NCBI RefSeq assembly: GCF_918797505.1
Contig: NC_092802.1
Location: 13,845,480-13,909,479, forward strand
Source of the DNA: Bemisia tabaci
Taxonomy: Eukaryota; Arthropoda; Insecta; Hemiptera; Aleyrodidae
Length of the DNA stretch: 64,000 nucleotides
Direction of reading: 5' to 3'
Shown here piece after piece: positions 13,785 through 54,220 of this stretch; position 1 is the first letter of the stretch; each line of letters opens with the position of its first letter. Made by a program: the position numbers and the translations under genes. The notes beneath the pieces were generated by a model. It was given only the letters and a program-made list of their open reading frames with translations, made no database searches and had not been told where the DNA came from.

Positions 13785-16700
13785 TTATTTACAAGGAGGT
13801 CCATCATTATTGATAACATGGTTGGGCTTGCAGATCTTTGTCCGGCCGTTCGACCCGTTGATGATGGAACACGTGAAAGTGAAGTACCCGCAGGTCGAGG
13901 ACTTGGTGTAGTAAGTATGAGCATATTTATTCGCAGCATCACTTTCCGCCGTCTTGCCTTTCAACTGCCCCGTTTCGCTTTTCGTGACCGTCACGAAAGT
14001 ATCTCCCCTTAAGTCGTTAGGGCTGGATTTCTGATCGTCCTTACCCGCTGTAGAGTACCGACTGAAGTACCGCGGCTGAACATAGCTACTTCTGTCGTAC
14101 ACCTTTTTTACGCCACTCTTATCAACGACGGTCACATTTCCATTCGTTCCCCTGGACACAACTACAGTCTGGGATTGTGCTTGGCTGCCAGGCGAGGCTG
14201 TAGCTAAAGTCTTGGTGCCCGCTGCAGAGGCGACTTTGTTCCCGTAGCCTTGAGCAACATCATTAGGTCTCGGAAAGGGTGCTTGAGACCTTTCATTCTT
14301 CCCATCGTCGGATGCCCTTATGATATGTGTATCATGATTTCCGTTCAATGTAAGCACGACGTTTTGTGACTGAGTCTGAGTTTGGGTGGAATTCGGACGA
14401 GATGTAGGACCAGGCAGCGACGAGCTCCTGTTTTTAAACTCTTCGCTCTTGGTCGCACCTTTCAGTAGACGGAAATCGGCCTCATCCCCCAAGTCATTAT
14501 CGATATCATCAATTTCTTCGTCATATACGTCCTCTTTTTCTTCAGAGTATTCATCGTCAGCCTCTTTGCCCAGGGGTATTTTGGACGGAGGGATAAATAA
14601 TTTAGTTTTAGTGGATTTAGATGAAGCCTCCGTTGTAGGTTGCGAAGGTTTTAGGGTGACAGGTTTTAAGGGCTGCACGGAAGAGCGGGTTGAACTTTCA
14701 ACCGGTTCTAGCTGGTTGACGTCAATTTCCGTCACGTTCGGTTTTACAATCGTTTGGAATTTATCGTGACTTGACTCTTGAGCGTTCGAATCGATGGGTG
14801 GACTCGAGATGCTCTGAGGTGTTGGCGTCGCTGAGATTTCAGGCACTACGTAGCTTGCGTTGAACGGAATAGGTTTCAAGTTATTAGCTGAAGGCCCTGT
14901 GCCTGCTTGAGCTGCACCGGTATAGGAAATTCCAAACTTGAACGAGCCTTGAATTTGGGTTTGAGATTGCCCCGAGTGTTTATTCGTTTGAGAGGACGCT
15001 GCACCACCTCCTTTGAATGGCGATGTTTGATTGTTGGTCGCCGAGCTATTTTGATAGGGTGAGAATCCGATTTGAGCCTGACTAGACGTGCTGCCTTGTC
15101 CTTTAGCCTGAGCATCAGCCATCCCACCTCGAATACCTGCTTGAACTTGAGTATTTGTACCATAGTTGAAACCGCTGCTCTGAGTCTCAGCCAAAGTGGC
15201 ACCCGTTTCACCGTTGACGGTAACTTGGGATTGAGTTTGCCCCTTCCCGGCTGTGCCTTGTGCTAAGCTCGTAGTTCCATTCGCTCCACCGGTAATTTGG
15301 CTATTGGCTCGTTTCAAATCGTCGCCGGTTTGAGCTTGTGCCGAAAAAGCTCCGGTCCCGGCGTATGATCCGGATACTTGAGCCTGAGCCACTTCATTCC
15401 CTACCTTCCCTTGAGACGAAGCTAAAGCTTTGGTATTGTTACCTTCGACGAAAACGCTTGTCTCAGCCTGAGCATCTCCCGTGACATTCTCGTGCCGATA
15501 ATCAATCCTGTCTTCGGAGGTACCTACGTTCGTACCAGGACCATGAATGACAGTTCCATTTGGATAAACAACTGTCCCATTCTGAAGGATCGCGGGACCT
15601 GTAGATGTAGTTCCAGGTATGCTTGCAGACTCCGACCCCCCGGTAACTGCAGGTGGAGCGCTGCCTCCAGGAATACCAGGAATGGCTGGTTGTCCCGGAG
15701 AATATCCTGGTTGGGCCGGTCTAAGGGGACCTCCCGACAGATAACCTCCCTGATTTGAAGAGACGTCCGACGATCCGACCTGTCCGGTGGATATGGTCCC
15801 TTGACTTGGCAGCCCTGGTTGTCCTGGAGGAAACACCTGAAGACGTGACTTGACCCGGAAGAAACGAAGTCTGACCCGGTGGGTATCCTGGCTGGCCTGG
15901 AGCTTGGACAGGAGTGTAGCCACCACTTCCTGTAGGGCCCACAGCTGGTATCGAGCCTGGTTGACCTAAAGCATAGACGGATTTACCTGGCACAGAACCA
16001 TCGTATCCACCTTGTCCGGGTGAGAGACTTGACTGACCTGGATGAAAAACAGTCTGTCCTGGATACGCCCCTTCTTGTCGTGGTGTGAAACCTGTTTGGC
16101 CTGGGATGAATATTGGCTGTCCTGGAGAAGATCCACCTTGTGGAGGTGTGTAACTTGTTTGCCCAGGTATGAAACCACTTTGTCCAGGAGGACCAACACC
16201 TGGTGCGTAACCTTGTCCAGGGATAACGCTCGTCTGGCCTGGAATGGAACCGGTTTGAGTCGGTGAGTATCCTGGAATAACACCTCCGGGCTGCGCAGGG
16301 CCACCAACTTGCACGGGAGTGTAGCCAGTCTGTCCAGGATGAAGTCCAGCTTGTCCTGGATACTGGCCTGCTTGACCTAGGACACTAGATTGCCCTGTTG
16401 TTGAAACTGTTGAGCTAGCCTGTCCAGGAGCAAAACCTGGAATAGCACCTCCAGAACCACTTGATCCTGGTATGAAGCTACCTTGCCCTGTCGGTGAAAT
16501 ATTTTGTCCTGGCTGATAACCTGCAACTCCCGAGGTCACGCCTGTGCTTCCAACCGTTCCAATTTGTCCACCTCCGTAACCTTGCTGGCTTGGAACATAG
16601 CCGGTTTGTCCTGGTAGGATACCCGTTTGTCCTGGTAGGATACCCGTTTGTCCTGGTAGAATACCTGTTTGTCCTGGTAGGATACCTGTTTGTCCTGGTA

Positions 16701-19700
16701 GGACACCTGTTTGTCCTGGTAAGATTCCTCCTTGTCCTGATGGAAAACCTGTTTGTCCTGATGGATAACCTGTTTGTCCTGATGGGAAACCTGTTTGTCC
16801 TGATGGGAAACCTGATAGTCCCGGAGCGAGTCCACCTGAGCTTGGTGTAACCACCAGTCCGGGTACGCTGCCTATTTGTCCGGGTTGGTATCCTCCTTGG
16901 CCTGGGAAAGAATCAATTCTTCCCGGAGCATATCCCGTCGGACTTGGTAGTAAGCCTTGGCCTGAAGTAGCACGCGTTTGTCCTGGCACTTGCCCATCCA
17001 GTCCTGGAAACAGTGAAGTCTGTCCAGGGCGTGAGGGTCCAGTCGGTCCTATTCCTGTGGTATCATATCCTCCCTGTCCTGGTCTAAAACCTGGCAGTGG
17101 CGCTGAGATACCAGAATCTTGGCCGGGAATAATTTGATGCGGGTACTGAGGAGGGCCCGATCCCCCTTGACTAATCCAGGTTTGTTGAGAAGGATTGAAT
17201 TGATTCACTATTCCTATTTGTTGTCCTGGATATCCGACCGGCCCACTGCCTGTTGAAGTATATCCTGGATACGCACCAAATTGGGGACCTGAAAGCTGAC
17301 TTGGATAGCCTGCTTGACCGCTTGGATAACCCACTTGGCCGTGGAGATCTCTCCCAGCTCCTGGCAAAATTTGTCCTGTTGCACCCGAAGGGATACCTGG
17401 GAGCCCTGCTTGGCCGGGCACTCTCACTAAAGATCCTGGGTAGCCTGTCTGTACTTGTGTACCAGTCTGGCTAGGAGGATAACCTCCAGGCACGGTACCT
17501 ACACCTGCATATTCTGGAAAACCTCTTTGGCTTGAGGGATATCCGATCGAAGGGAAAGTTCCACCTCCTGGATACGAGGACTGACCGGGAGTATGTAAAC
17601 CTCCCAGTGATGTGCCTTGCCCAGTTGTGTACCCTCTTTGTCCATCGTCGGGGTAAGAAACTCCTTGGCCACTCGGGTATCCGACCACTCCCGGAACACG
17701 TCCCTTTCCATCGGGTTGCAGAGATTGTGACTGGATCCCGGGAAAGCCACCTTGGCTGGAAGGATAGCTACCTCCAACCTGCCCGCCAGTATAGCCAGTT
17801 TGACCCTGGGAATAAATATTTTGATCTGGCGTTCTCACTGAACCACTGGGATATTGGGTTTGACCCGGGCCTTGTGCCCCTCCACCAGGATAGCCTATTT
17901 GCCCTGGAATAGAGGGTCCCCCGGTGAAAGTTCCAGGCTGAATAGATGTCGTTCCTTGACTAAAACCTGGGACAAAACTCGGAACACCGGGATATCTGGT
18001 TCCTCCTCCAGGAATTCCAACTTGTCCGGGTTGTGAAAATTGACCTCCAGGGTATCCAGTAATCTGGGGAGTCGTCCCAACGCCACTTGGAACTCCGACT
18101 TGTCCCGGAAGTAATATTTGACCACCAGATGCTCCAGTTGAACCACTTGGGTATCCAGGAATTTGCGGAGACGTCCCAACAGTACCTGGAATTACACCTT
18201 GCCCGGGAAGTATTGTTTGACCACCAGGAGTGCCAACCGGACCACCAGGATACCCAGTAATCTGCGGAGACGTTCCAACACTCCCTGGAACTGCACCTTG
18301 CCCGGGAAGTATTGTTTGACCACCCGGAGTGCCAGCTGGACCACCAGGGTACCTAGTAATTTGCGGAGACGTCCCAATACTCCCTGGAATTGCACCTTGC
18401 CCGGGAAGCATCGTTTGACCACCAGGATACCCAGTAATCTGTGGAGACGTCCCAACACTCCCTGGAATTGCACCTTGCCCGGGAAGCATCGTTTGACCAC
18501 CGGGATACACAGTAATCTGTGGAGACGTCCCGACACTCCCTGGGATTGCACCTTGCCCGGGTAGTATCGTTTGACCACCGGGATACCCAGTAATCTGTGG
18601 AGACGTCCCAACACTCCCTGGAATTGCACCTTGCCCGGGAAGTATCGTTTGACCACCGGGATACCCAGTAATCTGTGGAGACGTCCCAATACTCCCTGGA
18701 ACTGTTACTTGTCCTGGAAACGATGTTTGACGACCAGGAGCTTCACCCGGACCACCAGGATATCCAGTCTGAGGAGGGGCCCCAACACTTCCTACAACTC
18801 CACTTTGTCCTGGAATTGTAGCCGAACCACCGGGGTATCCAGAGCCACCAGGACCGCCGGGTAGACCACCTGGATATCCTGGAGTCTGATAAGGCGTTCC
18901 AACACTTCCTGGAGATGTAATTTGTCCCGGTCGTGCAGTCTGAGCTCCAGGATAATCAGCTGTTTGGTCTGGTATTCCATGATGTACACCAGGAGTTCCA
19001 GATTGCTTACCAGCATCAGATACCCCAGCTCGACCATCGTTCAGATTTGTGCCTGGTTTGACGCCTCCCCCTCTCTGATCTGTGGGTGAATTGCAATAAT
19101 CACAGTCATCGCCTGAAGCAGATTGACTTTGCGCCTGACCCATACCTTGAGTGCCGCCTAAAACGCAAAAAAAAGCATCTACTACTTGGAAGTTGAATTC
19201 AGGCAGTTTAAATTGTTTACATTCACTTTGCCATCGCGTTGCACCAGCAGGATTTTTCATCAGGTGACTCCTTATGAAGCAGGATTAGGTTAACTGCATT
19301 TGGACTACATTTTGCAATTTGAAGCTATAAATTTTAGCCCGGATTAAAAACAACGTATGTGCCATTAGTTTCCCTATGCACATAAGTGTTTCTACAGTTG
19401 AGCCAGAAATTTTAGTTCCTAAATGCAACATGCAGTCCATTTAATCTCGCACTGTTGCCTTTCAGATATTATTTGTTAACCAAAATGTAAAGTTAATATT
19501 CAACAAATTAGGCAATAAAATGCGGGCAGTGGCAAGAAATGTTCTTATCTTCTTTATTAATTTTGGAAAATACTCATGTTTCTACAATGACACTAGGAAC
19601 CATCTCAATGAACGCGCTATAATGCTTTACATCCTGCATCACTACAAGTCCCTGGTAAAAATTTGCAGTAGAATCTGTGTTCCTAAATACGATAGACTTA

Positions 19701-20939
19701 CAGGCGGCTGTAAGATTTCCAATAGATTTTATAGCCGGCTACACAGTTTCTTATAGCCTTTAATAGCCAACGGCGATTAAGCAACAGCCAGGCGATAAAG
19801 TGTACGCTAAACGTTACTAATTACGGATGCTAGGACTTAGTGAGTTTTTGGACTACTGCTCTCTTTTTGGGCCGTAGTATCTTTGATTTATTTTTCGAGG
19901 AAAGCTCCGTACTTTTCATGGATGCCTGCCATTCCTAATATGTTAGAGCGCCTTCAGTTTCGTATGATACTATGCAATACCTCTGGTGTGAAATAGTTGC
20001 TTCAAGCGCCGTGGCACGCTGCGGTGCGGCAGGCGGGCAGCCAGTGCGAAACGCGCATTGGCGCCTACAAACCTAACAGGGATACTTCACGCGTTGCGCA
20101 ATGCGTGAAGTATCCCTGTTAGGTTTATAGGCGCCATGCGCCAGTGCGTCGCCGCTCCGCTTTGCGTTAGGCTCTAATATTCAATCTGGCGGAGTCAGCG
20201 TTATTCAACTCATGATTTTGAAATGTTTGCACATTCTGTGTGGATTATTCTCATTTTAATTGATGAAAAAAAAAATATGTATTAAAGGAAAATATAATGT
20301 GTGTTTTTTTAATATGAAGGTGGTTCCGTGTCAAACTTAATGATTTCTAAGGCACACGAATTTCTCCACAATTTCTTTTAGCCTTTTGTAATTGATGGCG
20401 AAAAAGCAAGCCTTGAGGCAATCCGGCAGACATGAGTAAATCTCCAGAATTTTTCTTAGCACCTTTTACTTGTGCCACGTCTGTTAGTTTCTCAAATTTT
20501 ACCAAAATTGAAAATTAAAATAAGCCAGACACTTACTGACAGTAGCTCTTGACATATCTGGCTGAGCGATCGCTTCAGCAGTTCCGCTGTTTGTGCCATC
20601 TTTGCCCCCGCCAAAAGCTATGAACTGGGTCTGTACTTGGCCTCTGTACCGCGACTTCCGGTCCGTTTCCCGTTTAGTCCTCCGTTTGATACGGCTCTTC
20701 GTCTCAGAATGGACCGAGGCAGCGTCCACACTATCCTCGTTGAGAATCAGAACCTCGCTGGAGCTGGTTAGAGAACGCTGCTTCCGTAATATTGGAGCGT
20801 CGGGTTGAATCTTCGACTGATGGCTGGAAGATAGAACGTGATGGCTCGGTGAATTGGGCACTGGCGGTCTGGAGTGGAGAAGCTTGATTTGCATCCCGTT
20901 GCAAAATTCAACAATTTTGGGGCCCCATAGCTGTCTCGC
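13785..20939 (-). CDS. Giant Pro/Gly/Gln-rich (PGQ repeat) secreted-type structural protein, 5' exon(s) missing, one frameshift
   Basis: Two exons read on the minus strand: 20939-20537 (acceptor TTCCAG, donor GTAAGT) and 19157-13785 (acceptor TTTTAG, stop TAA). The phases agree: A|GC makes the Ser in ATVSGTQGMGQAQSQ. The first exon holds a basic run, RIKRRTKRE, that looks like a proprotein-convertase site, and then YRGQVQTQFIAFGGG. The long exon begins with a Cys pair (GDDCDYC). It then has over 1,000 residues of GYPGGQ/PGQ repeats: 26-residue units (QTILPGQGAIPGSVGTSPQI type) at about 18060-18740 and 8-residue PGQTGILP units at about 16600-16830. After these come an Ala/Gln/Ser domain (AQAQ, QTQSQV), an acidic stretch (DEEIDDIDNDLGDE) and a four-Cys C-terminus (TCGYFTFTCSI...KICKP...PPCK). 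The reading frame shifts by one base near 15,830-15,850. I do not recognise a named family. It resembles extracellular elastomeric, silk or cuticle-type proteins by composition only. The signal peptide should lie in an upstream exon that I did not find. Confidence 0.8.
16600..16830 (-). repeat. 24-bp coding tandem repeats (PGQTGILP/PSGQTGFP)
   Basis: Within the long exon, about ten tandem units of 24 bp encode PGQTGILP and its variant PSGQTGFP. Neighbouring units are nearly identical in DNA, which suggests recent slippage or unequal exchange. The unit keeps frame exactly (8 codons), so selection for an open frame is plausible. Confidence 0.85.
18060..18740 (-). repeat. 78- and 96-bp coding tandem repeats (26/32-residue units)
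   Basis: The box GTGGAGACGTCCC recurs at 78-bp spacing (around 18440, 18518, 18596 and 18674). Longer 96-bp versions at 18140-18370 add a GGPAGTPG-type insert. All unit lengths are multiples of three. Each unit encodes GYPGGQTILPGQGAIPGSVGTSPQIT-like peptide (26 residues), with both PGQ and GYPGG turns. Confidence 0.85.
19301..19439. mobile_element. 139-bp short foldback, TGGACTACATTTTGC ends (copy 1)
   Basis: The left end TGGACTACATTTTGCAATTT and right end AAATGCAACATGCAGTCCA are inverted. A copy of the same length with its interior in the opposite orientation is at 33351-33489. It lies just upstream of the long PGQ exon, inside the intron. Confidence 0.7.
20056..20145. repeat. Near-perfect 90-bp palindrome
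   Basis: The left arm GCGCATTGGCGCC...CTAACAGGGATACTTCACGC is mirrored by GCGTGAAGTATCCCTGTTAG...GGCGCCATGCGC with only a few bases at the centre. The motif GCAATGCGTGAAGTATCC is the same one that is tandemly repeated inside the hAT elements at 28 and 54 kb. It lies in the intron of the PGQ gene, in a locally GC-rich patch (about 20000-20180). Confidence 0.8.
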
Positions 20940-21047: not shown

Positions 21048-22856
21048 CAAGTTGGTTTTTGCAATCGCTAGCGATAGCAATATTCGTCATGGGAACTTTT
21101 GCTTCTGGGATATGAAAATGTTATACAGTTCGTTTGCAATATCTTCAGAATTGAAGGGGCTATGTAATTTTGTGTCGACATCTCTTTTTTAACATTTTTA
21201 ATTTTTTTTCTTTGCATACAAGAAAACTGTTATTTACCAATTATTTATTTTCGTTGGATTATGTATGGTTTTCGGAAGTTAACGCATTTAACTTTCAGTT
21301 TCGTTTTTTCGGCGTAAAGTATGATATTTTTACTCTACGCATATGCCCGAATACGCATCATAAGTGACCTATGTGCTTCCTAAGTTGCCATTTTTTCATT
21401 CAAATAGATGTAACTGAAATGTTAGATGTGTACTACCTATACTACTTTCATGTCATTGCTTTATTTATTTATTTATTTATTTATTTACTTTTTGCGTAGG
21501 TATAAATTGTTATTTTTTGCTGAATTTTGGAGAAAATATTGCTTTAAGAACGTGGAATGTAAATTAATTTTATTGAAAAAAGAAAATACCATCATTAATT
21601 TGGGCGAACAGAGAAAATATACATCAATATTTGGGTCAACATCTCCCTGATTATATAAAGGATGAATATATTAGTATTTCTGTATCAAAAAATTTAGCTT
21701 TTGTCTTCAGAGATACAATGATTCTAGTCCCAGCCAATTTGTTTTATTGAAAAAACAAAAAAACAAAAAAAAAATAAAAAAAAAACAACTGAAATGTTAG
21801 ACATACCATTTTCATGTCTTTCTATTTGTATCAATAGGTACTTTTTGCTTAACTTACGAACGTTGAATGCAAATTAACTTTATTGAAAAAAGAAAATAAC
21901 GTCATTAATTTGGGGGAACATGTGGCTGATTATATGAAGGAGGTATATTCCAGTATTTTTGTTTAACATATTAACTCACGAGAAAATGTTCGCACCGTTA
22001 TCATCTACTATTAATTATTTTTTGATGATTAGTCTAAAACAATCAATACAACCATTAAAAAGTAGTTCCCATCGTCGGGTATCGAACTCCCGATCGCCGG
22101 GTGCCCGCACCTAATCAAAAATACGAGGCGGTTTAGTCAACTAGGCTATAACGGATCCACGTGGTCGAGAGTAAAAATAGCATTTAAAAGACTCGGGCAA
22201 TGGGCGGGACTTATCACAAGAGACCTTGACTGCTTTTGAAGCGCATTGCTGTAGGAGCCATGGTTCGCACTGTTTTCATGTCTCTCAAGGTTCATCTCAG
22301 CATGCATTTGCCATCGCGGCAGTTAGCTGAGGCGATATTTGTGTATCCATGAATTAAATCAATCAATCGAGCTCTGATTTTGACTTCTTTGTCCGTAACG
22401 AGTCCTCCAGAACAATTTTCCACCTTGTACGATGGTTATTATTTCTTTACTTCTATTTTTCAAATTTGAGGTGGGATAATGGCGGCTTCTCAAGAGCACC
22501 GAGGTAGGCGATCTTTTGCACCAACGAACAGAAAACTGATGGCGAAAAATAACCAATCAGAACCTCCCAAAATAAAGAATTGCCCAAAATCGGAACTTCG
22601 TGGTTCTGCGCAGATTTACCAGTCAGACACGACATCTCAAAGGTGGAAAAAAACTCGCTGAAAGCGAATTTTAGAAATCAACACAACTTGACGTAGAGAC
22701 ATGATTGGCTAAAAAATACAACGGTTTTTGATTCATCGGAAAATCAACCAAAAATCGAAGACTGGGCGAAACGCTCAAGGTCGCAGAGGTATAGGGAATC
22801 CCATAGCGATAGCAACGGAACGATTGTAATATCATGGGGAACTCCGTTCCCATGAC
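21048..22856. mobile_element. Composite non-autonomous repeat, copy 1
   Basis: It begins CAAGTTGGTTTTTGCAATCG and ends ACTCCGTTCCCATGAC. The same sequence runs from 37121 to 40020, where both ends abut an otherwise contiguous Penelope reading frame, so the boundaries are well supported. The motif TAGCGATAGCAA occurs near both ends. GTCATGGGAAC (left, 38 bp in) and GTTCCCATGAC (right end) are inverted. It contains a tRNA-like block at 22069-22157. I cannot assign it to a superfamily. Confidence 0.75.
22069..22157 (-). repeat. tRNA-like (SINE-derived) block in composite repeat copy 1
   Basis: On the minus strand this reads TAGCCTAGTTGACTAAACCG (pol III A box form) and then GGGAGTTCGATACCCGAC (B box form), with tRNA-like spacing. 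There is no good 7-bp acceptor stem, so I call it a tRNA-derived repeat and not a tRNA gene. Matching blocks lie at 23238-23327 and 39211-39299. Confidence 0.6.
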
Positions 22857-23195: not shown

Positions 23196-24067
23196 GATTG
23201 GTCTAAAACATTCAATACAACCATTAAAAATTAACTCCCATCGCCGGGTATCGAACTCCCGATCACCTATTGCCCGCACCTAATCAAAAAAATGGGGCGC
23301 CTCAGTCAACTAGGCTATCACGGATCCGCGGTATCTCGAGAAAAAATAGCATGTAAAAGACTCGGACGATGGGCGGGACTTATCACAAGAGTTGTCCTTG
23401 AGCGATTCGCGTCTTCGTAGCCTTCTGAGATATGAGAGAAATGAGCTAAGCGCCTTCCTCTGTGAGACATTGTTTGCCTATGCTATCATGTGTCTCAAGG
23501 TTCATCTCAGCATGCATTTGCGTATCGCGGCAGTAAGCTGAGGCAATATTTCTGTATTCATGGAATAAATCAATCAATCGAGTTCCAATTTTGGCTCATA
23601 TATCCGTAACGGGTCCTCCAGAGCAGTTTTCCACCTTGCACAATAGTTATAATTTCTTTATTTCTATTTGTAAAATTTGAGGTGGGATAATGGCGGCTTC
23701 TCAAGAGCAACGAGGTAGGCGATCTTTTGCACCAACGAACAGAAAACTGATGGCGAAAAATAACCAATCAGAACCTCCCAAAAAAAAGAATTTGCCCAAA
23801 ATCGGAACTTCGTGGTTCTGCGCAGATTTACCAGTCAGACACGACATCTCAAGGTGGAAAAAAACTCGCTGAAAGCGAATTTTAGAAATCAACACAACTT
23901 GACGTAGAGACATGATTGGCTAAAAAATACAACGGTTTTTGATACATCGGAAAATCAACCAAAAATCGAAGACTGGGCGAAACGCTCAAGGTCGCAGAGG
24001 CATAGGGAATCCCATAGCGATAGCAACGGAACGATTGTAATATCATAGGGAACTCCGTTCCCATGAC
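23196..24067. mobile_element. Composite non-autonomous repeat, copy 2 (left part missing)
   Basis: This copy starts in the middle of the family (GGTCTAAAACATTCAATACA), contains the tRNA-like block at 23238-23327, and ends CTCCGTTCCCATGAC like copies 1 and 3. It lacks the left 1 kb. Just upstream, a 40-bp sequence (AATTTGACGC.CAAACCTCAG) occurs twice, at about 23080 and 23160. Confidence 0.75.
23238..23327 (-). repeat. tRNA-like block in composite repeat copy 2
   Basis: The minus strand has TAGCCTAGTTGACTGAGGCG and GGGAGTTCGATACCCGGCG at the spacing of pol III A and B boxes. It is more decayed than the other two copies, with an altered anticodon-arm region. Confidence 0.55.
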
Positions 24068-28218: not shown

Positions 28219-28520
28219 CCGCCGCCGCGCCTCGCAGACCGCACTGTGTTTGACGCAATGTGTGAAGTATTCACGCAGTCTTGTAGGCACTATGCGTCTC
28301 ACGCTGATCGCACTGTGTTTGCTGCAATGCGTGAGGTATTCATGCATTCTGGTAGGCGCTATCCATTTCACGCTTTCCGCAATGACCGCACTGTGTTTGA
28401 TGCAATGCGTGAGGTATTCATGCATTCTGGTAGGCGCTATCCATTTCACGCTTTCCGCAATGACCGCACTGTGTTTGATGCAATGAGTGAAGTATTCGTG
28501 CAGTCTTGTAGGCGCTAATA
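28219..28520 (+). repeat. Four tandem units of 70-78 bp inside hAT element 1
   Basis: Each unit starts CGCACTGTGTTTG and contains GCAATG.GTGA.GTATTC and TGTAGGCGCTA or a variant. Units 2 and 3 are almost identical (78 bp); units 1 and 4 are diverged. Fewer units occur in the hAT copies at 47.75 kb (one) and 53.9-54.12 kb (three). Confidence 0.85.
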
Positions 28521-33732: not shown

Positions 33733-36261
33733 TTAATCACCAGCTCCCTCTGGGAGGAAAAACTGGTGATAAGAGGCACAGAGACCATCAACATCAGCGC
33801 GGTAATTACAAAGTTTGTTCCTGCGCTTCAAGATATTCATCATTTCGAGGAGAAGACGCGGAAAATAACGCTTTTCGGAGGCTAAAATTTTAGCCCCCCC
33901 GAAGTCAAAGCGATGCACCTCTGCATCTTGGTGGTGCTGCAAGGCAGTCTTCTCCCCTTTCCCATATCGATGTTGAGAAAGCCTCTTTTTTAGTACCTGG
34001 GATGTCTGTCCTACGTACCCGACTTCACAATCCTGACACTGTACGTAGTAAACGACGCCAGCCACCAAGTCATTAGTTCTTTTTGATTTCAAATTGGACA
34101 TTAAAAAACCGAGATCGTTATATTTGGTATGCACAACAGAAAATCCATACTTTTTTAAAACATTTGCTAAGCTTTCCGACAAAAGGGGCACATATGGCAA
34201 AGAAATCAGTTTGTCAAATTTTATTTGACCCTTTTTACAACCATAATTTTGGTGTTTTCCACTTCCTTTTTCCCTCAACACTTTTGAGAATTCCCGATCA
34301 ACAAGAGTGCTAGGGTAACAATTTTCGAGCAACAATCTCTTCCCTATCTTTATAGTTTCTGAGAGAAACTGATGGTCGGTAAGACGCACAATTCGCTGCG
34401 CTAAATTGGTGACAACATTTTTCTTGTAAATTTCAGGCTGCACAGAAAGGTAATTTAAATAACGCCCTGATGAAGTTGGCTTCTGGTACCATTGGCAAAC
34501 AGCTAAATTACCCTCACGATGGACCGACAGATCAAGAAAATTAATTTTGCCATCAATTTCCTCTTCCAGAGAAAATTGAATGGCAGGATTTCTAGAATTG
34601 CAAAATTCAAGAATAAGTCCCGTATGCTGTTTGCAAACCATAGAAAAACTGTCATCAACATATCTTTTATAATTCAAAATAGGGAAAGGTATGTTAGCGT
34701 GCAAATCATCATCAAAAAATTCCATAACAATTTCAGCCAACACCGAAGAGACACTGCCACCCATAGCAAGGCCACTAACTTGTTGGTAAAAGGTGGAATC
34801 AAATTGAAAAACAGTTGAATTTATGCACACTTTTAAACCATATAGAAACTGCTCTTTTGGAATGGAGCAATGCTCTTGAATTTCATTCCACCGGCGCTCA
34901 ACACATTCAAGGGCTAGATCAGAAGAAATATTGGTGTACATAGATTCAACATCTAAAGAAATAAAAATGTAGCCATCGGGCACTTCCATCCTGTTGATGA
35001 AGTTGTAAAATTCAAAAGAATTGGCAATGTGAAAATTTGATTTACCCACGATATTGACCAAAATTGACGAGTACATTTTTGAAAGAGTGTAAAAAGGGCA
35101 TCCAACGGAGCTAACAATGGGGCGCATTGGATTATTTGGCTTATGCAGTTTTATCAAACCGTATATCCGTGACACCATGGCACCTGAGACTTTAAGTGAA
35201 TTAGCTAGATGTTCAGAGATGTAACCTGCCGCATACCAGGATTTTGCCAAATAATTATTTTTGGCGGACTGCGAGGGCACTAGTGAAGTGTTGATTTGTT
35301 TATACGTTGTACGATCGTCCAACAACGTTTGCATCTTAGTATTGTAGTCAACACTATTCATGATAACGGTTTTATTGGTTTTGTCAGCTAAAATAATTTT
35401 AATTTGAGGATTGTCTTTGATGAACCAAAAAGTGTGAATGATGTCACTTTTCAGGGAGCGCATATAAAAACATTCCTTAAAACGCCTGTTGGAACTAACA
35501 TTGATATTTTCATGGCCTGAAACTCTCTTCGCCAAATAGATGTAATTTCTAATGACATGACAAACTTTACCTCTGATGATGTCAATAAACGGAGGATGAA
35601 ATCTTAGCGTATTTTCGATGTTAGCAATGATGCGATCTAAAGGCACAGGTCGAAAAATAGATTTTTCACTCGGAAATTTGAAAAACGGAATGCAAAATTT
35701 AGGCCCAAGACATAGAACCCTCATTGCAAAATCCGGTATTTGAGTATCAGACAGATTCTCCACCCACGCGTCCTTTTTGTTGAAGAAAGGCTGGAAAGTT
35801 TGATGATACTTTTTTAAAGAATTACCTTTTAATACATTAAATTTCTTAGCAAGATTTTTATTGACTCTTCTCCACAGCTTTTGGTTTCTGAGAGTTAAAT
35901 TATGTAAGAAATCAACAATAACAACCTCGGGCAGTGTTGTTTTTAGAAAATAAATAATTTGATTAAGATGCCTTGATATGTTACTAATCAAAGCATGGAC
36001 ATCGTCTATACACAGTTGTAAAAAATCATGCTTGAATTTTTCTACCAACATGCATGCCTTGTTTTTCCGAGCAGTTAGTAAATCGGTCATATGTTCATGT
36101 TTAACCTGAATGAAGGAGGGTACAAGCTGAAATTTTCTACAGGAAAGCAGAAAAATCTTCCTGCAATTTGCCAAAACCAACTTTTTACTTGCATTATTCA
36201 GTTCCTTCAAGGCACGGACTGTTTTTTGCCCATGGCACCTTAAAACAAATTGATAAAACAT
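33733..36261 (-). CDS. Penelope-like element reverse transcriptase with C-terminal GIY-YIG endonuclease
   Basis: One intact 842-codon frame. Reverse transcriptase motifs appear in order: GLIKLHKPNNPMRPIVSS (about residue 365), FISLDVESMYTN with the first catalytic Asp (about 430), SGLAMGGSVSS (about 495), YKRYVDDSFSM with the YVDD catalytic pair (about 530) and INFLDLSV (about 565). The C-terminus carries VVYYVQCQDCEVGYVGQT (about 735), then LKKRLSQHRYG and the Glu-bearing RLLLEMMNILKR, which form a GIY-YIG nuclease. This domain pair defines Penelope-like retroelements, which copy themselves by target-primed reverse transcription. All catalytic residues that I can place are present, and there are no internal stops. 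The N-terminal 280 residues are Lys-rich and not recognised. Direct PLTRs flank the unit at 33494 and 36652. It could be a recently active copy. Confidence 0.95.
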   Translation of the reverse strand: MFYQFVLRCHGQKTVRALKELNNASKKLVLANCRKIFLLSCRKFQLVPSFIQVKHEHMTDLLTARKNKACMLVEKFKHDFLQLCIDDVHALISNISRHLNQIIYFLKTTLPEVVIVDFLHNLTLRNQKLWRRVNKNLAKKFNVLKGNSLKKYHQTFQPFFNKKDAWVENLSDTQIPDFAMRVLCLGPKFCIPFFKFPSEKSIFRPVPLDRIIANIENTLRFHPPFIDIIRGKVCHVIRNYIYLAKRVSGHENINVSSNRRFKECFYMRSLKSDIIHTFWFIKDNPQIKIILADKTNKTVIMNSVDYNTKMQTLLDDRTTYKQINTSLVPSQSAKNNYLAKSWYAAGYISEHLANSLKVSGAMVSRIYGLIKLHKPNNPMRPIVSSVGCPFYTLSKMYSSILVNIVGKSNFHIANSFEFYNFINRMEVPDGYIFISLDVESMYTNISSDLALECVERRWNEIQEHCSIPKEQFLYGLKVCINSTVFQFDSTFYQQVSGLAMGGSVSSVLAEIVMEFFDDDLHANIPFPILNYKRYVDDSFSMVCKQHTGLILEFCNSRNPAIQFSLEEEIDGKINFLDLSVHREGNLAVCQWYQKPTSSGRYLNYLSVQPEIYKKNVVTNLAQRIVRLTDHQFLSETIKIGKRLLLENCYPSTLVDREFSKVLREKGSGKHQNYGCKKGQIKFDKLISLPYVPLLSESLANVLKKYGFSVVHTKYNDLGFLMSNLKSKRTNDLVAGVVYYVQCQDCEVGYVGQTSQVLKKRLSQHRYGKGEKTALQHHQDAEVHRFDFGGAKILASEKRYFPRLLLEMMNILKRRNKLCNYRADVDGLCASYHQFFLPEGAGD

Positions 36262-36651
36262 TACGGCCTAGAGAAACAAATTTACAACCTAGAAACAGGA
36301 AAATCTGTCAAAATTTAAGCATTTGAATTGAAATCCGATTTTTAAAAAAATATTGAATAGAAGTCTAATTAAAGTAAAAGGTGCGACAGTCAAGATATAA
36401 AATCAGCAATTAAAAATTATATGAGAGACATGGAGAATAAAATGATGCAAAAGGTTACGAACCGACAACGTCAGATAATACATACGTATTGAAAAGTGCA
36501 AAATCAAACTGATCGAAACAACCTGATAACAAATGACGCGATATCCACGTATGCAACGCGACGACATAGAGACATAGAGGAAACAAAGAAATGAAGTAAA
36601 CGACCCAACTATACAGAATGAGAAACAACTTAATCAGCCAAAATACACGTA

Positions 36652-36880
36652 ATAAAAGAACAACTTAATTTGGGGAAAAGGCTGCAAATAAAGAAAAAGG
36701 AATAAACAAAACCCGGGACGTTTCAAAATAATAACAATTTCATTATCAACCGGAAAATAAATTAAAAACAAAAACGAGCCGTCGCTCCGCTGTAATTGCG
36801 AGACCGAGACTGATTACCAGGTAAACAGACTCGGCACAGTGCAACAAAATCAAAGCACACAAGACAAAGAGTACAAGTAG
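36652..36880 (-). repeat. Penelope terminal repeat (PLTR), upstream copy
   Basis: A near-identical direct copy of 33494-33728, placed 5' of the reverse-transcriptase gene with about 390 bp of leader between. Its outer edge (AAGAGTACAAGTAG) directly joins an inverted, 5'-truncated second Penelope copy that starts at about 36884. Confidence 0.8.
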
Positions 36881-37439
36881 TTGTTACCCTAGCACTCTTG
36901 TTGATCGGGAATTCTCAAAAGTGTTGAGGGAAAAAGGAAGTGGAAAACACCAAAATTATGGTTGTAAAAAGGGTCAAATAAAATTTGACAAACTGATTTC
37001 TTTGCCATATGTGCCCCTTTTGTCGGAAAGCTTAGCAAATGTTTTAAAAAAGTATGGATTTTCTGTTGTGCATACCAAATATAACGATCTCGGTTTCTTA
37101 ATGTCCAATTTGAAATCAAACAAGTTGGTTTTTGCAATCGCTAGCGATAGCAATATTCGTCATGGGAACTTTTGCTTCTGGGATATGAAAATTTTAAGGT
37201 ACAGTTCGTTTGTAGTATCTTCAGAATTGAAGGGGCTATGTAATTTTGTGTCGACATCTCTTTTTTAACATTTTTAATTTTTTTTCTTTGCATACAAGAA
37301 AGCTGTTATTTACCAATTATTTATTTTCGTTGGATTATGTATGGTTTTTGGAAGTTAACGCATTTAACTTTCAGTTTCGTTTTTTCGGCGTAAAGTATGA
37401 TATTTTTACTCTACGCATATGCCCGAATACGCATCATAA

Positions 37440-39299: not shown

Positions 39300-40092
39300 T
39301 CACGTGAGCGTCTTTTAAATGCTATTTTTAAAAATAGCATTTAAAAGACTCGGGCAATGGGCGGGACTTATCACAAGAGACCTCGACGCTTTGTTGCTGA
39401 GAAAGCGCATTGCTGTAGGAGCCATGGTTCGCACTCTTTTAATGCGTCTCGAGGTCCATCCCAGCACGCATTCCGATCGCGGCAGTTGAGCTAAGGCAAT
39501 ATTTGCGTATCCATGAATTAAATCAATCAATCGAGCTCTGATTTTGACTTCTTTATCCGTAACGAGTCCTCCAGAACAATTTTCCACCTTGTACGATGGT
39601 TATTATTTCTTTACTTCTATTTTTCAAATTTGAGGTGGGATAATGGCGGCTTCTCAAGAACACCGAGGTAGGCGATCTTTTGCACCAACGAACAGAAAAC
39701 TGATGGCGAAAAATAACCAATCAGAACCTCCCAAAAAAAAGAATTTGCCTAAAAACGGAACTTCGTGGTTCTGCGCAGATTTACCAGTCAGACACGACAT
39801 CTCAATGTGGAAAAAAACTCGCTGAAAGCGAATTTTAGCAATCAACACAACTTGACGTAGAGACATGATTGGCTAAAAAATACAACGGTTTTTGATACAT
39901 CGGAAAATCAACCAAAAATCGGAGACTGGGCGAAACGCTCAAGGTCGCAGAGGTATAGGGAATCCCATAGCGAAAGCAACGGAACGATTCTAATATCATG
40001 GGGAACTCCGTTCCCATGACAAAAGAACTAATGACTTGGTGGCTGGCGTCGTTTACTACGTACAGTGTCAGGATTGTGAAGTCGGGTACGTA

Positions 40093-40755
40093 TACTAGGG
40101 CCCACGAACGATGATCCCTGAGCCGCGGGTATTTCTTGCAAACACTGGCAACAGCGACACCCCGGCCCGAACCGAGTCTCGAGTTCGGGGACAATGCCGA
40201 GCCGAGCCACAATCGAACCCTAATTACTTACGCGTAATTTACAATTTCACCCTCCCGCTAGAAAAAACCAAAATTTGTTGAAAGTTGTGTAACATTTTTT
40301 TAGCAAGTGTTTCGTTACTCTCCTTTAAAACACGAGTAAAAAGAGGCCTCGTTTATAAAAATCGGTCAAATAGCAGCAAAGTTACAGTTCGAGATACGAT
40401 GTTATAAATAAAAATTGGACTTCGCTTCAAAAAGGAAAAAGAAGGAAAAAATAAAAATTGTATATAACAATTATATATGATTTAGCTCAGAATTTTACGA
40501 GCAATCCAACCATGTAATGGACGAAGAGATTGGGGCAAAATTACAAGAAATTGATCTTTTACGAAAGGGCTTCCTATGAAGAATTTTGACCTGAAGATAG
40601 GGGTAGAATAGCAGCAGTTTGCATACAATAGCTTTTCGCGTTCACAATACCCGGTCTCGTCGATGTGCGTGCTCGACCCTGCAGCGTTGTCATTTACATG
40701 GTCCGTGCGTTTATTCGCCCGATTTTTCAGGGATCATCGTTCGTGGGCCCTAGTA
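40093..40755. mobile_element. 663-bp MITE with 29-bp perfect terminal inverted repeats, TA target
   Basis: The left end TACTAGGGCCCACGAACGAT continues to CCCTGA, and the right end is its exact reverse complement for 29 bases. TA flanks both ends (40091-40092 and 40756-40757), as in Tc1/mariner-like elements. It interrupts Penelope codons GYV|GQT. Parts of its interior recur at 45330-45510, 48640-48830 and 50260-50300. Confidence 0.8.
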
Positions 40756-41592
40756 TAGGTCAGACATCCCAGGTACTAAAAAAGAGGCTTTCTCAACATC
40801 GATATGGGAAAGGGGAGAAAACTGCCTTGCAGCACTACCAAGATGCAGAGGTGCATCGCTTTGACTTCGGGGGGGCTAAAATTTTAGCCTCCGAAAAGCG
40901 TTATTTTCCGCGTCTTCTCCTCGAAATGATGAATATCTTGAAGCGCAGGAACAAACTTTGTAATTACCGCGCTGATGTTGATGGTCTCTGTGCCTCTTAT
41001 CACCAGTTTTTCCTCCCAGAGGGAGCTGGTGATTAAATTTCCATCCTTTTTTGTAATCTTTGTCTTGTGTGCTTTGATTTTGCTGCACTGTGCCGAGTCT
41101 GTTTACCTGGTAATCAGTCTCGGTCTCGCAATTACAGCGGAGCGACGGCTCGTTTTTGTTTTTAATTTATTTTCCGGTTGATAATGAAATTGTTATTATT
41201 TTGAAACGTTCCGGGTTTTGTTTATTCCTTTTTCTTTATTTGCAGCCTTTTCCCCAAATTAAGTTGTTCTTTTATTATGTGTATTTTGGCTGATTAAGTT
41301 GTTTCTCATTCTGTGTAGTCCATATGTACTTCTGCGCTTTTCAATCAGATAAAGTAAAGTAGCAATCTTTTTGAAACCAACGGGTTTGCGAGCGATTTCT
41401 TTTGTTAGTTTTTAAAACGACGAAATCCCAAATATCCGCATGATTACTGCATTTTGAGCGCGATTCTGGGGTCGAACCGTGGTAAACTTTTTGTATTTAT
41501 TCAGGAACTACGGCGGATCAAGAGACGTTACTTGGGTCATTAAAGAGAATATAAAGGAGTGGAAGAGAGTAAGCACAATGAGAGGACTTATC

Positions 41593-47401: not shown

Positions 47402-48022
47402 CAGGGCCGGATTTACCTACTTGCCGCCCATGGGCCGCCTGTATTTTGCCCCTTCTCATTCGTTTTGAAACATCAATAAAAACCATCAAGTGAACGTGCC
47501 GCAGGGGGAGGGGTACATAAGACGCGTTTACCTACTCGTGTTTGATACATTTTTTGCGAAAGCTCTGTCAACATTACTAGCAAAATTTCACGCATCTTTG
47601 CGCAAAAGTTAAGTTCCGTAAACCTGTCTCTGCGTGGACAAGGTCCTCCATTAATAAGAAATGAACCAAAAAATTATGAAAGAACAAACATACATGTGGT
47701 TTAATAATTATTTTAACTTCTGCCGCGCCGCGCTTCGCACTATGTTTGGCGCAATGCGTGAAGCATTCTTGCAGTCTTGTAGGCGCTAATATGTGTTTTA
47801 TGCCGACCGCCGCGCCAAGGGCTTGCCCTTTTCATCTCAAGTCCTCGTCATCATTCCTCTCTGCGCTGAGCTCCAGGCCAAATTGCGTGATTAGTTCGTC
47901 TCTTGACTCGACTAATTAAAGACGCTGTCTCTTGTAGCACCAAAAAACTACAAAATTAGAAATTACTATACTCTCAGGAAAGGGAGATTTTTCCCCCTTT
48001 TCTCGTTGATATTTTTTGGCGC

Positions 48023-53319: not shown

Positions 53320-54220
53320 CAGGGCCGGATTTACCTATATGCTGCCCGTGGGCCGCCTGTATTTCTCCGCCCCCTGCTCATTTGTTTTGAAACATCAATA
53401 GATCGTATTTGACAGTGGTTCGATGTATCGTTTGGTTCAAAACAATAGAACATAACCTCAAACGAAAATTTTAGGATTTAATTTGGAAAAGCTGGAAATG
53501 AGAAAATTACTGACAATTTCACTTCTCATTGCCATTTGGTGCTCGAGAGAATAAAAATTCGATCACATGAGACCCGTTACCTCAGATTTCTAAATTGACT
53601 TTTGAGGCTTTGGTTACACTTTGAACCAATCGATATCAATATAATCTCACCTGAGTGATCTGTCGAATACGATCTAAAAAAACCATCAAGTGAACGTGCC
53701 GGTTGGGGAGGGGTGCATAAGACGCGTTTACTCGTGTTGGGCACATGTTTTTTAAAAGCCGTGTCAACACTAACAAAATTTCAGTTCCGTAAACCCATTC
53801 CTGTTTGGACAAGGCCTTTCATTTATAAAAAAGAACGAAAAAATTATGAAAGAACAAACATAAATGTGGTTAAAAATTTTAACTTCCACCGCCGCGCCGA
53901 CCGCACTATATGTTGGCGCAATGCGTGAGGTATTCATGCAGTCTTGCAGGCGCTATGCGTTTCACGCCTACCGATGCTGACCTCACTGTTTTAACGCAAA
54001 GCGCGAAGTATTCATGTAGTCTTGTAGGCGCTATGCGTTTCAAGCTGACTGCTGCTGACCGCAGTGTGTTTGACGCAATGCGTGAAGTATCCATGCAGTC
54101 TTGTAGGCGCTATATGTTTCATGCCGACCGCCGCGCGCACCAATCCGTTCCAGGTCTAATCGGGTGTTTGGTTTCTCTCTTAACTCGACTTTTTAAAGGT
54201 TTTGTCTCTTGTATCACCCG
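53320..54220. mobile_element. hAT element 3, right end lost, with a mariner-type MITE inside
   Basis: The left end CAGGGCCGGATTTACC and the following several hundred bases are colinear with elements 1 and 2, including three tandem GCAATGCGTGA units at 53915-54120. The right terminus is missing, so no target duplication can be scored. A 274-bp element interrupts it at 53401. Confidence 0.75.
53401..53674. mobile_element. 274-bp Tc1/mariner-type MITE with TA duplication
   Basis: The ends are GATCGTATTTGACAG and CTGTCGAATACGATC (one mismatch), flanked by TA at 53399-53400 and 53675-53676. The two other hAT copies read straight through this point (CATCAATAAAAACCATCAAG), giving an empty site. Confidence 0.9.

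Follow-up and report, generated by a model that had tools for sequence, protein, structure and literature searches.

On the minus strand of a 64,000-nucleotide stretch of the Bemisia tabaci genome (NCBI RefSeq assembly GCF_918797505.1, contig NC_092802.1, positions 13,845,480 to 13,909,479; hereafter the window, with position 1 its first letter) lies a repeat-rich gene of about 1,920 codons (13785–20939) that sequence comparison identifies, with very high confidence, as the hemipteran orthologue of Drosophila pericardin. Its product is very probably a hemipteran Pericardin (Prc), a secreted proprotein for the heart matrix. Relatives of this protein share an architecture comprising, in order, a signal-peptide-like start, a BRICHOS domain (in six insect orders), a basic site, the motif RGQTQSQ, the motif GMGQAQS with a CxxC pair, variable repeats, an Ala/Gln domain, an acidic stretch and a four-Cys tail. 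We regard the window gene as a new Pericardin member, and the BRICHOS-bearing form as a variant not found described under the Pericardin name in a search that left most subscription papers outside; no paper in the literature searched joined BRICHOS with pericardin, and none of the titles on BRICHOS in insects concerned this link.

A protein search with the non-repeat C-terminal part, as proposed in the original prediction made from the letters of the sequence alone, retrieved 68 proteins, every named one an insect protein, at E-values down to 7e-104. The full-length query retrieved 168 proteins (120 listed), overlapping the C-terminal set, and an N-terminal query taken from a Timema protein retrieved 41; over all searches 186 different proteins were listed. 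The C-terminal and full-length searches scored only the approximately 8,000 candidates sharing most words, and many relatives are isoforms or fragments, such that protein counts are not species counts. Named members represent Odonata, Phasmatodea, Blattodea (including a termite), Hemiptera, Hymenoptera, Coleoptera, Lepidoptera and Diptera, often under database labels such as mucin-19-like, hornerin-like, PE-PGRS54 or collagen-like; none came from outside the insects, in searches of which none was aimed at crustaceans or springtails. The proposal that the protein was lineage-specific and outside any named family is thus overturned, the family spanning eight insect orders and its Drosophila member being Pericardin.

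The connection to Pericardin is made by the peptide NFQSTYYTK, given in PMC5936059 as the Prc antigen peptide, at the C-terminus of Pericardin. It occurs in six of the 186 relatives listed, all from Drosophila (P0064–P0067, P0069 and P0071); these are all six of the Drosophila matches with a four-Cys tail. In them it directly precedes SSTCGYF and the tail, SSTCGYF being common to the window, and the C-terminal stretch of the window, AHTYYTKSSTCGYFTFTC, can be matched with the Drosophila sequence NFQSTYYTKSSTCGYFTFSC through both the Prc peptide region and the four-Cys tail. The Pfam family of Pericardin repeats (PF07054, Pericardin_rpt; cut-off 24.4 bits) is found in P0064 (81 bits) and P0066 (188 bits); it is unmatched in P0069, whose model is without repeats, and likewise in the window repeats (P0002) and in the two cockroach proteins, one ant protein and one wasp protein scanned, so that it marks repeats of the Drosophila type and not the whole family. 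Prc of D. melanogaster is itself absent from the relatives listed; the one RGD in P0069, from D. simulans, lies near the C-terminus, in keeping with what is reported for Prc (PMC5936059).

Comparison with orthologues from six genera, by local alignment, gave identities to the window protein of 51–65% in the Ala/Gln domain (51% to D. subobscura), 50–64% in the start motif and CxxC region, 41–67% in the tail and 34–41% in the repeats, much of the last perhaps arising from shared composition. A tree of the Ala/Gln domain follows the insect orders, and places the window in a set of 14 rows (support 100/98). The named members of that set are one psyllid and otherwise aphids or aphid kin; the exact place of the window near aphids and psyllids is weakly supported (66/9). 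No near-identical protein occurs among the relatives listed, the best being 68% identical over the Ala/Gln domain. Daktulosphaira (Phylloxera) contributes at least 26 predicted isoforms of one gene (P0138–P0143, P0146, P0149, P0150, P0169–P0182 and P0187–P0189, with isoform numbers to X50), some of them named homeobox protein or kinase, names that do not fit the sequence. A paper on Pericardin and Lonely heart in Anopheles gambiae is cited by title in a reference list. Pericardin also figures in two expression studies: a whitefly table gives this name to Bemisia tabaci Bta04938 (PMC9727895), a hemipteran gene that bears it already, and a study of the honey bee includes pericardin in a list.

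An N-terminal BRICHOS domain precedes the conserved basic site in relatives from six of the eight orders (weakly in Hemiptera); the Drosophila proteins read are without it. The Pfam model PF04089 (cut-off 25 bits) scores 25.5 bits in Diploptera and 31.4 bits in a Timema segment; of the 13 segments scanned, 11 gave matches with E-values no higher than 1. The domain is already annotated, by precomputed assignments in Timema, Vespula, Polistes, Vespa and Cryptolaemus and by the UniRef name "BRICHOS domain-containing protein" given to some orthologues, and the six best rows of a Foldseek search are all chains of 2YAD, the BRICHOS domain of proSP-C. Among 26 aligned N-termini of relatives both Cys are present in every one and the Asp in 24, with spacings in Timema of 16 (Asp–Cys) and 57 (Cys–Cys); the completely conserved residues of the BRICHOS superfamily are D144, C160 and C219 (PMC2751770). 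These counts refer to all 26 sequences: the 13-segment alignment drawn from them left out the two rows lacking the Asp and was cut at the basic site, its invariant R-x-x-R being partly a product of construction. In uncut proteins having RGQTQSQ and at least 12 residues before it, R-x-x-R lies within 30 residues upstream of that motif in 119 of 119, and the stricter [RK]x[KR]R in 111.

Although Pfam calls no BRICHOS domain in the window exon at 20939–20537, a profile of 66 relatives' N-termini matches this exon at 53.5 bits (E = 3.3e-15), a score that spans the BRICHOS end, the linker and the start motif together. Judged by alignment, the first exon of the gene seen in the window begins inside the last part of a BRICHOS domain: the segment at 20874–20939, ARQLWGPKIVEFCNGMQIKLL, aligns with AWRLAGGRIVDFCNGRNILLLQ of relatives bearing the whole domain, and its second hallmark Cys (20903–20901) stands in a conserved context (LWGPKIVEFCNG compared with LAGGRIVDFCNG). 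There follow a proprotein-convertase-like basic site, KSRIKRRTKRE (20667–20699), whose R-x-x-R is kept in relatives, and the conserved motif RGQVQTQF (20622–20645), the putative start of the mature protein. Beyond the exon, the minus strand from 20940 to 64000 yielded neither a signal peptide nor the first BRICHOS part, in agreement with the original prediction that a 5' part is missing. When profiles of the relatives' N-termini were run on peptides from six-frame translation and on donor-ended peptides, no score rose above chance: the best among control peptides from the opposite strand was 9.8 bits, against 5.2; one of the profile sets also included the linker and start motif, and the second was cut as intended.

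AlphaFold2, run with 30 sequences, models the Ala/Gln domain (14892–15479) as all-beta, with 14 strands over model residues 16–208 at block pLDDT (predicted local distance difference test) of 75–95; the stretch that follows the domain comes out as disordered, and the prediction for the tail is weak. The pattern QxQ occurs nine times in the domain against 3.1 expected, a count reached by two of 1000 shuffles, and QQ is absent, as it is in 26 of 1000; in seven orthologues tested the QxQ count was reached in zero to six of 300 shuffles. The conserved core is predicted as a flat beta-sheet having an Ala/Gly/Ser face opposite a Gln/Thr face, and a sheet with such an alternating pattern could stack or polymerise.

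The repeats, by comparison, are the least conserved part of the protein and may be elastomer-like in character. They occupy 15651–18978 (borders by eye), with 44 PGQ in 1047 residues, bearing out the more than 1,000 residues of PGQ turns originally described. Self-similarity peaks fall at 7, 26 and 33 residues and their sums, with tandem periods of 21, 78 and 99 bases; of the units proposed earlier that of 26 residues stands, and those of 8 and 32 give way to 7 and 33. These features bear on an alternative that takes up the printed label of Drosophila Prc, namely that the product resembles collagen IV and forms a triple helix. The repeats of D. subobscura P0066 favor it, having a Gly-X-Y triplet total above all 300 shuffles and a run of eight triplets reached by 13 of 300. 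Among the 13 repeat regions tested, however, P0066 is the only one whose longest run was reached by fewer than 5% of shuffles. The triplet totals of Blattella P0012 and pea aphid P0114 exceed the shuffles (reached by six and none of 300), but their longest runs are five and three, and the D. guanche region, P0064, is without any Gly-X-Y excess. For the window, 158 of 300 shuffles contain a run as long as its longest, which is five; its Gly spacing has its peak at 7 and not 3, and none of three window pieces matches a collagen or NC1 family in Pfam. Because the core is predicted to be a flat beta-sheet and the window repeats lack a Gly-X-Y excess, the term collagen-like does not fit; "collagen IV-like" applies at best to some Drosophila repeats, and as an account of this protein we consider it highly improbable.

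Still less probable is a lineage-specific cuticle, silk or saliva-sheath protein. Its attraction is the resemblance of turn-rich PGQ repeats to elastic and silk-like proteins in general; against it stand the spread of relatives over eight insect orders, the agreement of the tree with those orders, a Drosophila member that is a heart-matrix protein and, for the saliva sheath, the fact that many of the eight orders make none. What survives of the function originally suggested is a large, probably secreted, repeat-rich matrix protein; the cuticle and saliva-sheath roles found no support.

The remaining modules predicted from the sequence alone (the basic site, the Cys pair, the Ala/Gln domain, an acidic patch and the four-Cys tail) are all present. 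The motif GMGQAQSQS and its Cys pair lie at 19093–19146, with CDYC at 19104–19093, and in all 94 of the relatives, among 179 examined, that contain G[MI]GQ[AS]QS, a CxxC lies no more than 25 residues away. The acidic patch (14475–14564) has a counterpart in an acidic stretch of relatives. The tail, CGYFTFTC...KIC...PPCK (13788–13892), opens with CGYF in 176 of the 179 (the exceptions being P0148, P0167 and P0168), and from there on contains four Cys in 166, six in nine and three in one. Since the tail is conserved and Prc is reported to form redox-dependent multimers (PMC5936059), the tail may serve as a crosslinking site. Prc is also reported to be glycosylated (PMC5936059). An RGD tripeptide at 14009–14001 of the window lies at nearly the position found in D. 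simulans, though nearly all other relatives are without one: RGD has been proposed as the anchor of Prc, but as a conserved anchor it can be rejected, RGD near the tail being present in only two of the 176 tail-bearing relatives (D. simulans and one unnamed protein), and the shared place would reflect chance or convergence. This touches on a published observation that a C-terminal GFP fusion of Prc fails to rescue, for which the authors consider that access to the RGD was likely affected (PMC5936059).

The gene model comprises an internal exon (20537–20939, with ag and gt borders), encoding the last BRICHOS part, linker, basic site and RGQVQTQF motif; a gt...ag intron (19158–20536), which harbours a palindrome whose arms are 39 bases long; and a large last exon (13785–19157, stop codon included) that uses two frames. 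An ag precedes 20939, gt...ag borders enclose 20536–19158, and the junction 20537/19157 is in frame, yielding SRATVSGTQGMGQAQSQS, in which SRATVSG is followed by GMGQAQSQS. An uninterrupted junction-type motif stands before GMGQAQS in 113 of 122 relatives (strict pattern, at least 15 residues preceding); among the other nine, this preceding motif has S in place of A in seven, has diverged further in P0164 and is missing from P0034. We therefore regard this junction, as originally predicted, as sound, because the spliced product shows a motif order found uninterrupted in relatives. The total of about 1,920 codons (the first exon supplies 134, the junction one, the repeat frame 1,106 and the C-terminal frame 681) agrees with the earlier estimate of more than 1,900, even though the second exon is not a single reading frame. 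Two overlapping open reading frames (ORFs) of 1187 (15721–19284) and 726 residues (13785–15965) cover it, the former beyond chance length when set against the next largest ORF outside the gene, one of 844 residues in a transposon. The frames change register at approximately 15831–15837. Because both sides of the change look coding, the break is likely a single insertion or deletion, from assembly error or in this allele; a small intron was considered and rejected, no gt–ag pair of normal size being found by eye that would not cost repeat codons. A decaying pericardin pseudogene, which the register change might suggest, is hard to credit with no stop codon elsewhere in about 1,920 codons, an Ala/Gln domain downstream of the break that retains the identity to orthologues given above, and all four tail Cys kept.

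We suggest the following course for this hemipteran Pericardin, built on motifs and orthology. In several orders the precursor opens with a signal-peptide-like segment and BRICHOS, seen in relatives and, for the last part only, in the window. Cleavage by a proprotein convertase at the basic site, just before RGQTQSQ, would quite likely release the mature chain. Somewhat less surely, the CxxC pair and four-Cys tail would link mature chains into disulphide multimers, the particular cysteines being our choice; and there is about an even chance that the long PGQ spacer, varying in sequence and length between orders, confers extensibility. With fair confidence, by orthology, the polymer would help to connect the heart tube, the alary muscles and the pericardial cells with one another. 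Prc has this function in Drosophila, where Lonely heart (Loh) recruits Prc to the matrix (PMC3708815). For BRICHOS itself, a role as built-in chaperone shielding the Ala/Gln beta-sheet during secretion is nearly as likely as not; the layout of the Pericardin relatives fits such a role, because BRICHOS has been suggested to guard an amyloid-prone region of the proprotein that contains it, proteolysis then setting it free (PMC9627735). More tentatively still, and with doubt prevailing, Pericardin could be the insect member of the BRICHOS proproteins and not a collagen, in which a single-layer sheet built on the Ala/Gln ladder, kept soluble by BRICHOS, polymerises into heart-matrix fibres locked by the Cys tail, fruit flies having later lost the chaperone. 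If that were true, a controlled polymer of amyloid- or silk-like kind would hold up the heart in most insects. The assignment supplies a name and a testable role for a gene labelled otherwise in many insects, links the insect heart matrix to the BRICHOS chaperones known from research on lung disease and dementia, and calls into question two printed ideas about Prc: its collagen-like nature, and the RGD as what a C-terminal tag disturbs.

Elsewhere in the window, an ORF of 844 residues (33733–36267, minus strand) has a reverse transcriptase match below the Pfam cut-off and a GIY-YIG match above it, and presumably belongs to a Penelope-like retroelement; parts of its sequence recur in ORFs at 36825–37268 and 40632–41036 (both plus strand). 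Two tandem arrays with units of 78 bases, at 28240–28517 and 53899–54130, have a common core, AATGCGTGAAGTATTCATGCA, with eight matches in the window at up to three mismatches, one of them outside the arrays at 47753, and none in 100 shuffles. The palindrome within the gene's intron (20059–20136; arms 95% complementary, without spacer) has a core like that of these arrays and looks like a small foldback element. A dispersed repeat containing GGGAACGGAGTTCCC is present in exact copies at 22837–22851, 24048–24062 and 40001–40015 (0.02 expected). Neither a tRNA nor any Rfam family at gathering score was found in the window; the three window pieces gave no Pfam match at cut-off, and the best match of the C-terminal frame to PDB sequences (E = 0.079) is at chance level.

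Among known systems, resilin, elastin, silk and glutenin-type proteins use Pro-Gly turn repeats as spacer; these proteins have no Pfam domain in common with the window. Collagen IV is comparable in the matrix role of the Drosophila orthologue and differs in the Gly-X-Y excess and the collagen and NC1 matches that the window lacks. Drosophila Pericardin has the basic site before the start motif, RGQTQSQ, GMGQAQS with CxxC, long Gly/Pro/Gln repeats, the Ala/Gln domain, the acidic patch and the four-Cys tail; the Drosophila proteins read depart from the window protein in having no BRICHOS domain and in their different repeats, which in P0064 and P0066 match PF07054. The BRICHOS proproteins (proSP-C, ITM2/Bri, gastrokines, chondromodulin, tenomodulin and marine antimicrobial-peptide precursors) resemble the relatives of the window gene in a D...C...C pro-region, a basic site and a beta-prone region, and differ in that these relatives open with a signal-peptide-like segment and that their client runs to about 1,000 residues or beyond. 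The 13 BRICHOS groups, in the available text of PMC9627735, do not include Pericardin by name, though it could sit in group I or II.

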